Below, in pieces: positions 7,509-62,991 of a DNA stretch of 64,000 nucleotides (positions are counted from its first letter, which is position 1; each line of letters begins with the position of its first letter). Both the position numbers and the translations under genes were made by a program. The DNA comes from Malassezia japonica (Eukaryota; Basidiomycota; Malasseziomycetes; Malasseziales; Malasseziaceae), in the NCBI RefSeq assembly GCF_029542785.1, contig NC_083370.1:62001-126000 (forward strand), written 5' to 3'. Below the pieces are notes generated by a model, which was not told the DNA's origin, made no database searches, and saw only the letters and a list, made by a program, of their open reading frames with translations.

Positions 7509-7612
7509 GGGCCCAACCGGGAATTGAACCCGGGACCTCTCCCAGACTCAGGGCTCCCCTGAGGGTTTCAGTTATTCCCGAAGGGAGTATAATACGACTA
7601 TACTATTGGGCC
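7509..7612 (-). tRNA. tRNA-Pro (anticodon CGG) with a 32-nt intron
   Basis: Read on the minus strand, acceptor GGCCCAA pairs with TTGGGCC, the D arm contains TAGTATAGTCG (A-box-like), the anticodon stem CTCCC/GGGAG encloses loop TTCGGG-T (anticodon CGG), and the T arm is CCGGG-TTCAATT-CCCGG (B box). The intron occupies 7545-7576, just 3' of the anticodon-adjacent G37, the canonical position; its CCCTCAGGGGAGCCCTGAG can fold. A T5 run follows on the minus strand at 7501-7505. Confidence 0.93.
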
Positions 7613-18692: not shown

Positions 18693-20036
18693 CTACGTTT
18701 CCAACGCGAGAACGCGCAGCCGTTCGTACTCCATGTCGGGATCCTTGCCGTGGATCTGTTCCCATTTAAAGAGGCAGTTGAGCCTGCTTGGCGAGTATTC
18801 CTCGGCTGTGTCAGTCACACGACGTACAGAGCGAGTCGTCCGGCACACACGCGCATTTGCCCGGCTTGGCAATCGGGCAGTGCTGGATCGGCGGATGGCG
18901 ATACCCTGGGTAAGCCTGGTCGCGTACCGATCTCGTTAAAGTAGTGTACCTCGTCCTTTTCCAGGAACAGCGAGACGGCCAACGAGCGTACCGGCGCATC
19001 CCCCCAGCGTTCGCTGCGTTAGCATTACCACATACGAAAAGAAGCCGTTGGTCTGTGTGAGTCGCGCGACGTACCTTGCTCAGGTACTGAAAGTAGGCCT
19101 GGTACTCTTCCGACCGGAGCCAGTTTAGGTCGGTGATTTCAAAGTCTGGGTTAGTCGTTTTACATACTTGTCCAAAAATCTGGGTCAGTAGAGCAACGTA
19201 CGGCACATGTTGTATCCCTGGTTAAACTTTCGCACGGAGAACGGTAGCATGCTCGTGTTCCTCGCGTACTGGGGGTATTCTTTGCGGAATTCTGTGTGAG
19301 TCGCGCGACGTACGCAGCGCGGTCTTGTAGAGCGACGGCACGGTGCGTGGGCTGCGTCAGTAGATCGACATACTCTTCGCGGAGACTAATGGCCCAGCCG
19401 TATTTCTTCTTCCCATCGCGCATCACGCGGAATGGGTCCTCGTCCGACATCTTGCAAAAGTAGGACACGCCCGGCTCGATGCGCCATGCATAGTCAAAGT
19501 TCCGGAGGAGCTCATGGTTCATAAAGAAGCCGCTTTGGTATCGGCACATTTGGCGGTACGACTTGCTCCTGGCGTAGAGCACATTTTGCTGAGCCAGCTT
19601 TTCCCACTCCTCTTTGGCCTTGGTCATATTGAACGAGCTCGGCACGTCCCACTCTTCTGCCGGCACGAGGCCAAAGTGGATGTCGGCCTTGGTCGCTGCG
19701 CGCACGTACCGCATGAAACGGTCGGTAAACGGCTCGTCGTTGAGAAACACCTGAATTAGCCTCGCGACGCACATAAGGGTACCGCGTATCCGCGCGGTTG
19801 TTGAACGTGCTTTCCACGTCGCGCATCGACTCGAGCAGCGCGCCGAGCTCGCGGTTGCGCACCAGCGCATAAAACGCTCCCCTGGGCCGCTGCGACCAAA
19901 AATTCGCGACGCCCGCACCGCTCCCTGCAGAAATCACCTGATTCTTCGCATCGTACGTATTCCGATAGAGCAGCAGCGCATTCAAGAGCAGCGCGACGAT
20001 CCCCGCTACAAGCAGGTACCGACTCACGGCCGTCAT
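18693..20036 (-). CDS. GT15 alpha-1,2-mannosyltransferase (KRE2/MNT1 family), ten exons
   Basis: Golgi type II glycosyltransferase adding alpha-1,2-mannose to O- and N-glycans. Exons: 19773-20036, 19374-19750, 19314-19351, 19202-19291, 19168-19179, 19075-19145, 19036-19052, 18928-19013, 18828-18905 and 18693-18805, giving 381 aa. All nine introns are exactly 22 nt. Seen: an N-terminal signal anchor ([18 protein letters not shown]), [58 protein letters not shown] and [16 protein letters not shown], in family order. The 12-nt exon at 19168-19179 supplies the HFWT part of CHFWTNFEI, and another exon is 17 nt. The summed coding length is divisible by three and every junction restores a KRE2-family motif, which supports the model strongly. 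Confidence 0.93.
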
Positions 20037-31637: not shown

Positions 31638-32476
31638 TTAGAGCTTCTGCATGGCAGCAATGTCGGTGGACTGGACGTAGTCCTCGAGCTCCTGGACCTG
31701 CTCCTGGAGCTCGTCCATCGACACCTTGTCGTCCTCGACGACAAGGGTGATCTGGAGCTTGTTCACACCATAGCCGATGGGGACGAGCTTCGAGGCACCC
31801 CACACGAGACCGTCCATCTCGACGGCGCGCACGGCCTCCTCCATGGCCTTCATGTCGGTCTCGTCGTCCCAGGGCTTGACCTCAAAGGTGACGACCGACT
31901 TCTGGACGGGCTTGGGCTTGTTGGCCTTGCGGGCCTCGTACTCCTTCACACGCTCAGCCTTGACGCGCTCAGCCTCCTCGTCGACCTCCTCGTCCGAGCC
32001 GAACAGGTCGACATCGTCGTCGTCAGCGGCGTTGGGCGAGGTGAAGGCAAGCACCTCAGCGGCCTTGGTCTTGTCGCCGGGGAGGTCCTTGTGGCCCTCA
32101 GCAAACGACTGGATGTGCTCCCACCAGCGCTTAATGTTGGGGTAGAAGCTGGGGTGAGGGGGCTCCTTGATCTCCTCAAAGGCAGCAACGTCGACCTGCG
32201 ACGGCTCGTGGCTAAAACGTCAGTATCATCCACAGAAAAAAAACCCGTGGCTGCCGATGTATCAGTGGGCTTGGAAATGGGGTGTCGTCAAAGCAAAAAG
32301 AGCGCGGGGTCTTAAGCCGCTGGACTCGGAAACACGGACCAAAGCAATATTCATCGCGGTATAGGCAGGCAGCCACGGGCTTAGGTGTATACGTACCCGT
32401 CAAGGTACGACTTGGTACCGAGGAACTCCTCGAGCTTGGCGAGCACGTCGTCGTTCGTAAAGTCGGGCAGAGACAT
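31638..32476 (-). CDS. EFB1: Translation elongation factor EF-1beta, with a snoRNA-bearing intron
   Basis: Guanine-nucleotide exchange factor for eEF1A. Exons 32397-32476 and 31638-32211 give 217 aa. Seen: [19 protein letters not shown] then a GST-C-like segment ([28 protein letters not shown]), an acidic linker ([17 protein letters not shown]), and the C-terminal exchange domain ([39 protein letters not shown], ending DIAAMQKL). The intron at 32212-32396 is 185 nt, about eight times the local norm, and carries the U18-like snoRNA described separately. It is GTACGT at the donor and ends TACTGACGTTTTAG. The ATG at 32476 is the family start. Confidence 0.96.
32244..32379 (-). ncRNA. snR18: Box C/D snoRNA, U18 (snR18)-like, inside the EF-1beta intron
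   Basis: Seen on the minus strand, 5' to 3': stem half CCCGTGGCTGCC (32368-32379), box C-like GCGATGA (32351-32357), guide TTGGTCCGTGTTTC (32329-32342), a D'-like CCGA, a C'-like TGACGA, box D CTGA (32262-32265), and the exact complementary stem half GGCAGCCACGGG (32244-32255). The guide is a 14-nt perfect antisense to GAAACACGGACCAA, a highly conserved stretch of large-subunit rRNA that, from memory, is the U18/snR18 methylation target (yeast 25S A649/C650). In S. cerevisiae snR18 also lies in the EFB1 intron, so the host gene agrees. The stem, boxes and guide together make the call firm; exact mature ends are not determined, and the second guide before box D has no target I can name. Confidence 0.9.
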
Positions 32477-53735: not shown

Positions 53736-54117
53736 GGCCGAGGACACAACGGAAGAGACAGTGGCTAACGGGCAACAATGACCCTTTACAAAAGGATATC
53801 AATTTTAACAGGCAAACTTCCGCAAATATGTTTGGGTAGGGTGAAATCAGGTGGCACTGGGCCAATTAAGTCCCGTGATTCGGTGCATTTCTCGTTATCT
53901 ACCTGATGGGGATGCGCTCGCCTGGGATTTGATGGACTCCGTTTGATAAGATGGAGGCAGCCGCAGCAAATCCCTCATTGGCCCCTTCGCCGATCTAGTT
54001 TATATAATCGATCGTAGATACCGCGGTAAAAAAGGTTCGCTCGGAGTCCAAGGGGAGCGCCGCAGCGCGGTGCGAGAGGGGGACCATGCTGCGCGTAGGG
54101 ATATATAATCTTCTATT
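53736..54117. promoter_or_regulatory. Promoter of permease 3
   Basis: 382 bp, A/T-richer than its surroundings. GATA-type sites are TTATC at 53895-53899 and TGATAAG at 53944-53950; TATATAAT occurs near 54001 and 54102. I see no gene. Confidence 0.5.
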
Positions 54118-55880
54118 TTAGAAAATGAACGTCATCACCTTGGACCACCAAGATTGCTGCCGTGCTTCGGCCCGCTCCTGTTCCAGGACCTCTTCGGAAA
54201 CAGGGTCGCGGCGCCCAGAGTGGATATCAAAGTCTTCCAAACGCACAAAGCGGCTGCGCGTCCAGAATTTGTGACCCAGGTAAAGTACAATGACAAAGAT
54301 CAGCGAAATCATGCCCAAGAAGAAGTCGTGAGCACGTCTCTTAGGTGTCATTTCGCCTTCACCGATGGGGAATGCCGACACATAGAAAGTGCCAATGATG
54401 ACGAGAAGGTTAAAAACAAACCCGACATAGGAGCCGATGATGCCAAGAGGTGACGCCCATGGCAATTGTCGGAGTGTATTTCCTTCGCGCTTCCACGCAG
54501 CACGGAAGCGGATGTGCGCCCAGCAGATGGATATCCAGGCAAAGATGGAGTTGAAACCAGCCAGACTCACGAACCAGTTCTGGAGTTAGTAATGCAACGT
54601 ACAAAGATTTCCACCTCGGTCGAGGAGTAGATCAAAAATCCCAGCGGGCCCAGGAGGAGTGCAAGAAGCACGGCAGGAAGCGGCCTGCCGTTGCGGTCCA
54701 CATAGGTAAAGATTTTGGGTGCCTGGTCGTGCATGGCAAGGGCTAGGAGCGTGCGGCTCGACGCATACACACTCGCATTACCCACAGACAAGGTTGAGAT
54801 GAGAATAATGGCATTGAAGATGTCGGGGAGTACCTTGATCGCGCCAATTTTGATTGCAATCACAAAAGGTGATGTGCGGGTATCGTAATCTCCACCTTGC
54901 AAACGCGGGTCATCGTACGGGACGATAAGCGAGACCATGAACAGAGACAGAATGTAAAAGAGCAAAACACGGAAAACAACCTGCTTGCAGGCGCGGGGCA
55001 GCTGCCTCCGAGCATCGGCGGTCTCGGCAGCCGCGAGACCCACCAGCTCGGTACCAGCAAAAGCGAACGCAGCCGTGGTGAAAACGGAGCAGAAACCCTT
55101 GAAACCGTTCTGGAAAGCGCCGCCAGCCAAATGCCACGTATGCGCACCCATATATTGGCCCGAAGGCGAGCCACCGCAGTTGATGACAATGGCGCAAATG
55201 ATAAAACCGATGCATCCAAGAACTTTGATGAAGGAGGCAGCGAACTCGAATTCACCATAACCTCGCACACCAAACAGGTTAATAAAAGCAATGATGACGA
55301 GCGATATGGCCACCCACACGCCACTTGGTATCTTCACATGGGGGTCCCAGTACTGAATGACCATGGCAGCCGCGATACTTTCGAGCGGCAGCGGAGTAAT
55401 CCAGCCAATCCAGTACACCCAGCCCATGGCGAAACCCCAGGAAGGGTCAATGAACCGTGTAGAGTAGGTAGAGAAAGCACCCGTCACTGGCAGCACGGAT
55501 GCCAGCTCGCCCAGCGCGAACACGACAGTGATAACAAGGATCGAGATGGTCAGGAACCCGACGATCAGTGACCCCGGCCCACCGTCGGCGAGCGGGGAGC
55601 CAGATCCGATAAACAGACCCGTTCCGATACTTCCTCCCAGCGCAATAAACTGGATGTGTCTCCCCTGCAGGCTGCGCTTCAGGTTGGCATCTTCGGTCGA
55701 GTAAACGCCTCTGTTATCCTCGAGCTGGGGCTCGTTCAGGGCGCTTGAACCGCGGTCGTTGCCGTAGGACTCATGGTCCGAAGCCATGGACATGGACTTC
55801 AGCGATTGTGATTCGAACTTCTCATCTGTGTTGGCCTCTTGACGCCTGAAGCCGTCGACCCATCGCCGAAAAAGACTCAT
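54118..55880 (-). CDS. Amino-acid permease 4 of 4 (AAT family), one intron
   Basis: Exons 54603-55880 and 54118-54579, separated by a 23-nt intron, give 579 aa. Seen: MSLFRRWVDGFRRQEA start, LKRSLQGRHIQFIALGGSIG, FIDPSWGFAMGWVYWIGWIT, FAFAGTELVGLAAAETADAR, and the tail GRRDPVSEEVLEQERAEARQ ending MTFIF. The intron interrupts between helices 8 and 9 (EVEIF | NWFVSLAGFN) and is absent from the three sister genes at that point, where the same region reads straight through. The ATG at 55880 aligns with the other copies; the frame is open a further 29 codons upstream. The divergent 296-bp promoter shares TTATC at 56004-56008. Confidence 0.93.
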
Positions 55881-61788: not shown

Positions 61789-62991
61789 CTAGCGCTTGAA
61801 AATCGTCACACAGTCCTCGTCCTCCAGGACGTGGTCGCCGCCCACGCGCTGGCCACGGGGGTGCTTGGCGGACGTGCCCCAGACCATGGCGTACTTGAAC
61901 TGCTTGAAGATCTCGCGGTGGATCGCATTGCAAAAGTCCTCCACGGTGCACTTGCCACGGCGCAGCACGACCGGGGCCGTGTAGTCCGGCGGGCTCTTGC
62001 GCGGCTTGGTGTAGATGCGCACGAGGTTCAGCTCGTCCCACATCTTGTCCACCAGCTCGTCGACGTTCAGCCACTCGCGCGAGGAGATCGGGACCGACTG
62101 CGGGATCTTGTACAGCAGGTCGAGCTCCTCGATCGAGATGCTGTCGATCTTGTTCAGGACGTAGATGCACGGGATGTAGTGGCGGTTGCCCTCGACCACG
62201 TCGATCAGCTCGTCGACGGTGATGTCCTCGCGGAAGGCAATGTCGGCGTTCGCGATGCGGTACTCGCTCATCACCGCCTTGATCTCGTCGTGGTCGATCT
62301 TGGTGAGCGGCACGGTATTGGTAATCGCCAGGCCGCCCTTGTCCTTCTTCTTCACAATCACGTTCGGGGGGCGCTTGTTCAGGCGGATACCAAAGCCGTC
62401 CAGCTCAGCCTCGAGGATCTGCTTGTCCTTCAACGGCTTGCACACGTCCAGCACGATAAAGATCAGGTTGCACGTCCGTGCCACAGCAATGACCTGGCGA
62501 CCACGACCCTTGCCGTCCTTGGCACCTTCGATAATACCGGGCAGGTCGAGCACCTGGATCTTGGCACCGCGCACTGTCATGGTACCAGGAACGGTGGTCA
62601 CTGCGTTAGTCGTGAGACGTACGTGTTGTGAACTCGTAGGCAGCCGCCTCGGACGTCGTTCCCGTGAGACCCGACATGCTGCGTGAGAGAAAATCGACAT
62701 ACAGTGTAGATTTACCGACCGACGGGAAACCGACAAAGCCCACACTGGCGATACCAGTGCGTGCGACATCGAAACCGAGGCCGCCGCCGCCGCCGCCGCC
62801 GCCGCCGCTCGACGAGATCAGCTCACGCTTGAGCTTGGCGAGCTTCGCACGCAGCTGGCCAAGGTGGTAGGCCGTGGCCTTGTTCTTCTGCGTGCCTGGG
62901 GTTAGAGGTGCAACATACGGTTCATCTCATCTTCGACTTCTTTGATCTTTTGTACGGTCGTCTGCGTCAGTCAGCCAGCGCCACGCACCAT
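61789..62991 (-). CDS. RBG1: Developmentally regulated GTP-binding protein (DRG1/RBG1)
   Basis: Ribosome-associated Obg/HflX-like GTPase that promotes translation. Exons 62989-62991 (ATG only), 62919-62961, 62703-62895, 62623-62678 and 61789-62600; introns are 27, 23, 24 and 22 nt; 368 aa, the family length. Seen: [20 protein letters not shown], a poly-Gly tract from a GCC-repeat, GFPSVGKST at ~71-79 (P-loop), the EFTTLTTVPG switch [17 protein letters not shown] (switch II), NKID and the C-terminal TGS domain ([15 protein letters not shown]). Every intron is required to connect these motifs in frame. The first coding exon is just the start codon; this follows because ACGACC (T-T) is preceded directly by an intron ending GCAG. 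Confidence 0.94.

Follow-up and report, generated by a model that had tools for sequence, protein, structure and literature searches.

The locus lies in a 64,000-nt stretch of the Malassezia japonica genome (hereafter the window) from assembly GCF_029542785.1 (G000), which holds 8.43 Mb in 9 contigs. The species is a skin yeast, and its genus belongs to the basidiomycetes. A gene for translation elongation factor 1 beta (EF-1beta) on the minus strand comprises an 80-nt exon 1 (32397..32476; 26 codons plus 2 nt), placed by spliced translation and the M. japonica protein record, a 185-nt intron (32212..32396), and an exon 2 (31638..32211) encoding the EF-1_beta_acid and EF1_GNE domains (Pfam EF1_GNE, 2.1e-34). 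The intron is of the GT..AG type (5' end GTACGT, 3' end TACTGACGTTTTAG) with a branch-like TACTGAC at 32219-32225. Splicing it out yields a 217-aa protein with 100% identity, over the full length, to 'Translation elongation factor 1 beta [Malassezia japonica]', confirming both the host gene and the 185-nt intron that a preliminary description of this DNA had proposed.

The elements of a box C/D snoRNA all lie within this intron in sense orientation on the transcribed minus strand, in the order box C-like, guide, D'-like, C'-like and box D, with 96 nt from C to D and an outer stem enclosing them. From the 5' side, these are the 5' arm of the stem, CCCGTGGCTGCC (32368..32379); a box C-like GCGATGA (32351..32357), which as GCGAUGA has one change from the consensus RUGAUGA; the guide CTTTGGTCCGTGTTTC (32329..32344), which reads (CT)TTGGTCCGTGTTTC on the minus strand and ends at 32329; a D'-like CCGA (32326..32329), which overlaps the final guide base and aligns in register with the D' box of Rfam SNORD18; a C'-like TGACGA (32285..32290) within TTGACGA (32285-32291); a box D of consensus sequence, CTGA (32262..32265; CUGA); and the 3' arm, GGCAGCCACGGG (32244..32255). 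The two arms form a perfect 12-bp external stem joining C and D, located 17 nt from the 5' splice site and 32 nt from the 3' splice site. The preliminary description had claimed boxes C and D together with this flanking stem; the stem is exactly as proposed, with none of 20,000 dinucleotide shuffles closing both intron ends in this way, and box D is intact, whereas box C matches its consensus imperfectly. Among 20,000 random sequences with the composition of the intron, 7 formed a perfect 12-bp stem at some position. The folding energy of the whole intron stands out only slightly (z -1.73, matched by 11 of 200 shuffles), and in the minimum-energy fold part of the guide sits in helices, which compete with an open guide.

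Directly upstream of D', the 14-nt guide core (32329-32342) is exactly complementary to GAAACACGGACCAA, a conserved large-subunit (LSU) rRNA site. The earlier claim of a 14-nt antisense match to conserved rRNA is borne out for the 12 of the 14 guide bases that are covered by the site of the universal LSU primer NL4; for the other two, the target bases are presumed, in agreement with the preliminary description. Two further guide pairs (one of them G-U) would form if the 25S target continues GG, as we presume it does. The NL4 primer occurs in papers in which Malassezia is mentioned as well. In the Rfam alignment, which covers the family over its full length, guide and D' fall into the SNORD18 consensus register without gaps. 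The fifth nucleotide upstream of D' is the U at 32334, whose pairing partner is the A of GAAACACGG; since the guide register matches that of SNORD18, this A in 25S rRNA is the predicted methylation target. The yeast U18 target is presumably A649. Excerpts of PMC3511168 give the U18 targets as human Am1313, Arabidopsis Am660 and, in the numbering of that paper, yeast Am647. Outside the EF-1beta intron the 25S target string has no copy in the 8.43-Mb assembly, and 5.8S rRNA has no match there; therefore, rDNA seems to be absent from the assembly or withheld from it.

In the 8.43-Mb genome there is exactly one copy of the guide complement, compared with zero occurrences of a backwards control. 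Allowing up to two mismatches to the target string, 44 places were found genome-wide vs. 39 for the control, so near-copies of the guide are background. Ten of the 44 were examined (the exact copy, both one-mismatch copies and seven two-mismatch copies), and among these a GATG core upstream combined with an NNGA box at the guide end was seen in the EF-1beta copy only; both one-mismatch copies are without boxes. A search with the U18 covariance model, which the preliminary description had suggested, recovered the correct family and register but a low score: RF00093 (SNORD18) matched the EF-1beta intron at 16.7 bits (E 3.7 in an 801-base search), missing the gathering score of 41 that served as the operational cut-off. 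The gathering-threshold search of the window gave no snoRNA call, and the whole-window search up to E 10 did not include the EF-1beta SNORD18 match. Rfam alone would not call the EF-1beta snoRNA. Elsewhere in the genome, a 39-nt place at C1:235409-235447 (L003:1501-1539) scored higher against SNORD18 (22.1 bits, E 0.44, whole genome); it combines GCTGATGA, similar to box C, with ten bases of the guide, TTGGTCCGTG. Because it has neither the TTTC guide end nor a D' box, it would not place a methyl mark and is an improbable second U18 gene; this partial second place slightly lowers confidence in the U18 reading of the EF-1beta intron. Of the nine places inspected among the 43 other than the exact copy, none carries a GATG core upstream or a D'-like box where the guide ends.

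The comparison with known systems points to the same identity. Guide and predicted target are, as we understand them, the same in S. cerevisiae snR18, and exon 1 of yeast EFB1 is presumably also 80 nt long, which would give the two introns equal position and phase. The yeast EFB1 intron measures 366 nt vs. 185 nt in M. japonica, and vertebrate SNORD18 copies reside in RPL4. The earlier statement that snR18 sits in the S. cerevisiae EFB1 (TEF5) intron agrees with excerpts of PMC2705663, which also place snR38 in TEF4; the EF-1beta host is therefore common to both species, while box C and D' of M. japonica differ from the family consensus. In the ascomycete C. albicans, snR18 likewise lies in the EFB1 intron, and its transcript was seen on tiling arrays, whereas the M. 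japonica copy is predicted from sequence (excerpts of PMC2926782). The U18 homologues of N. crassa, CD46A and CD46B, are two copies of 89 nt that are intronic and direct Am635 (26S A635) through a D' guide, as predicted for M. japonica (excerpts of PMC2780460). With Rfam SNORD18 the M. japonica element shares guide and target register, and differs in its sub-threshold score. The EF-1beta snoRNA is U18 by guide and host; by Rfam score alone it would not be filed there. A literature search found no recognised report of U18 in an EF-1beta intron of any Malassezia; one may well be contained in Canzler et al. 2018, 'The fungal snoRNAome'. In collections of viral and genomic contigs (viral_contigs and genome_contigs), 15 and 109 candidate stretches for EF-1beta relatives were found, respectively, with none confirmed. 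A U18 pattern with a consensus D' had 0 matches in genome_contigs, a pattern that a copy with an M. japonica-like D' would escape. The pattern without D' gave three viral_contigs matches, whose sequences show no evident snoRNA layout and which were read as chance.

If yeast-type hosts are kept in this genome, other host genes should show the expected snoRNAs. Known S. cerevisiae pairs include ASC1/snR24 and IMD4/snR54. Excerpts of the literature add RPL7 as host of snR39/snR59 in S. cerevisiae (PMC8476143) and the RPS22/snR44 pair in Candida (PMC5033589), and report that intron-poor species including M. sympodialis keep snoRNA introns in RPL7 and NOG2 (PMC8476143). Six host genes were examined as an internal control, namely EF-1beta, EF-1gamma, RACK1/ASC1, RPL7, IMPDH and uS8/RPS22; four of the six contained the expected snoRNA, all four below the Rfam threshold. 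The 156-nt EF-1gamma intron (G000:C3, L017:800-955), closed by a 9-bp inverted repeat, holds a snoR38 match at 823-921 (31.8 bits, cut-off 45, E 0.019 in a 3.3-kb search). The 225-nt RACK1 intron (L021, intron 1449-1673) holds a U24-like match at G000:C1:974916-975015 (SNORD24, 25.3 bits, cut-off 41; E 0.24 for the whole genome and 1.1 in another search), which includes both long guide stretches, AUAUUUGCUA and AAACCACCAAGAUC, has the box C GCGATGA, and is enclosed by a perfect 14-bp closing stem. The RACK1 gene has WD40 in Pfam, and its two exons match Gib2 and RACK1/Asc1 chains end to end (4d6v residues to 175 and from 176); the Gib2 chain is presumably of Cryptococcus type. This locus was found via the snoRNA search itself and is therefore not an independent host trial. 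The 245-nt RPL7 intron (G000:C4, L024:1585-1829), with a closing 7-bp repeat, holds an snR39-like match at 1642-1726 (24.9 bits, cut-off 40, E 0.68) that includes ACCAUCUUUCGGGGCUGAU. The IMPDH and uS8/RPS22 loci, covering 3 kb to 4 kb around the respective hits, gave no snoRNA match. Among the remaining hits, U14 produced weak matches (best 22.3 bits, cut-off 64) that were set aside after reading, and a second SNORD24 place on the plus strand of the window (54092-54164, 20.1 bits) is probably chance.

Taken singly, all of these E-values are weak; what counts is that the expected family was found within the intron of the expected host. The conservation of yeast-type snoRNA-host pairs in M. japonica is thus well supported, and the deep conservation suggested earlier for the EF-1beta pair is strengthened by three more yeast-type pairs, with two further hosts giving none. 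According to the Rfam alignments and sequences, box C reads GCGAUGA in U18, GCGAUGA in U24, AGGAUGC in snR38 and AUGAUGC in snR39, while all four share the box D CUGA. Among the four snoRNAs of this genome, the U18 box C is thus not exceptional, and low Rfam scores may be typical of the lineage.

Combined, the guide, register, strand, spacing, stem and host favor the U18-type reading of the preliminary description, and we hold it to be highly probable that the EF-1beta intron carries a U18-type box C/D snoRNA, for which we infer expression, processing and methylation; the snoRNA is very probably functional. In the proposed route, the EF-1beta pre-mRNA would be spliced and the intron released by debranching, the outer stem would join boxes C and D for binding of the C/D core proteins, and exonuclease trimming would leave an RNA of roughly 100 nt. 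The D' guide would then pair with GAAACACGGACC in 25S rRNA and direct 2'-O-methylation to the A five positions from D' (human Am1313). In Fusarium graminearum, putative intronic U18, U24, snR38, snR39 and snR44 drop upon loss of lariat debranching (excerpts of PMC9606315), a result that supports this processing route in fungi.

An alternative is that the intron holds a decayed snoRNA, a former U18 whose degraded box C and D' leave it unprocessed or inactive, with U18 activity lost or provided elsewhere. The departures of GCGAUGA and CCGA from their consensus sequences agree with such decay, but the 14-nt guide is intact, the 12-bp stem is perfect and box D is unchanged; moreover, exactly this box C recurs in the U24-like copy of M. 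japonica. A replacement elsewhere is also hard to place, as the one-mismatch guide copies are boxless and the higher-scoring 39-nt place has a partial guide, making decay improbable. A purely structural role in splicing, with the stem bringing splice site and branch point closer together and the rRNA match being incidental, would fit the stem's position near the two splice sites (17 nt precede and 32 nt follow it); such a stem requires neither guide nor boxes, and a 14-nt match to a known guide in the correct register and host is unlikely to arise by chance, so that we give this explanation hardly any credence. A random rRNA-complementary stretch would be compatible with the non-significant Rfam match taken alone, but is extremely improbable since the longest guide piece in 20,000 random 185-mers was 11 nt (none reached at least 12 nt), the closing stem never arose in the shuffles, and the host agrees.

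The preliminary description took the snoRNA as the reason why this intron escaped shrinking, which it may be. Based on motif counts, the window contains 21 GT..branch..AG strings of 20-29 nt vs. 3.7 expected, and 14 of the 31 listed intron-like strings of at most 45 nt, some of which overlap and all of which are defined by motif only, are exactly 22 nt long. Many intron-like strings of exactly 22 nt have a branch-like CTRAY shortly upstream of the 3' splice site, for example at 1943-1964, 19146-19167 and 62601-62622; this is a very short intron norm. Across the window, the EF-1beta intron was the sole intron-like string of 100-320 nt closed by a stem of 10 bp or more, and 20 random windows contained none. 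The preliminary description had put the intron norm at 22 nt and called the EF-1beta intron the sole large one; the norm holds, whereas the uniqueness applies only to introns that are closed by a stem of 10 bp or more.

External stems joining C and D are known from intronic snoRNAs, and in yeast introns stems are known to reduce the distance to the branch site. In each of the four snoRNA introns an inverted repeat lies close to the two ends, with a length of 12 bp (EF-1beta), 9 bp (EF-1gamma), 14 bp (RACK1) and 7 bp (RPL7), reached in 0, 50, 0 and 1,410 of 20,000 shuffles, respectively (combined p 1.9e-9; RPL7 alone is non-significant). Outside the stems, 49, 35, 45 and 46 nt are left in the same order. 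These repeats perhaps help a spliceosome that is used to 22-nt introns. A broader and still doubtful proposal is that snoRNA introns survive through a dual-role stem, which would join C and D while looping the snoRNA out so that about 35-49 nt remain, together with a box C that has drifted but kept its GAUG core. If true, the drifted box C would hide such snoRNAs from standard models.

The occurrence of U18 in EF-1beta of M. japonica is real, and the pairing itself was already known from budding yeast. The results for this genome indicate that budding-yeast snoRNA-host pairs persist across the ascomycete-basidiomycete split, even where most introns shrank to approximately 22 nt. The snoRNA content is a concrete candidate reason for the few introns that stayed long, and the four loci provide a test set for stems that let a small-intron spliceosome remove long introns. 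Separately, the E-value search of the window, though not the gathering search, contained a tRNA match on the minus strand at 7509-7612 (48 bits, cut-off 29) that spans 104 nt and is perhaps an intron-bearing tRNA gene.
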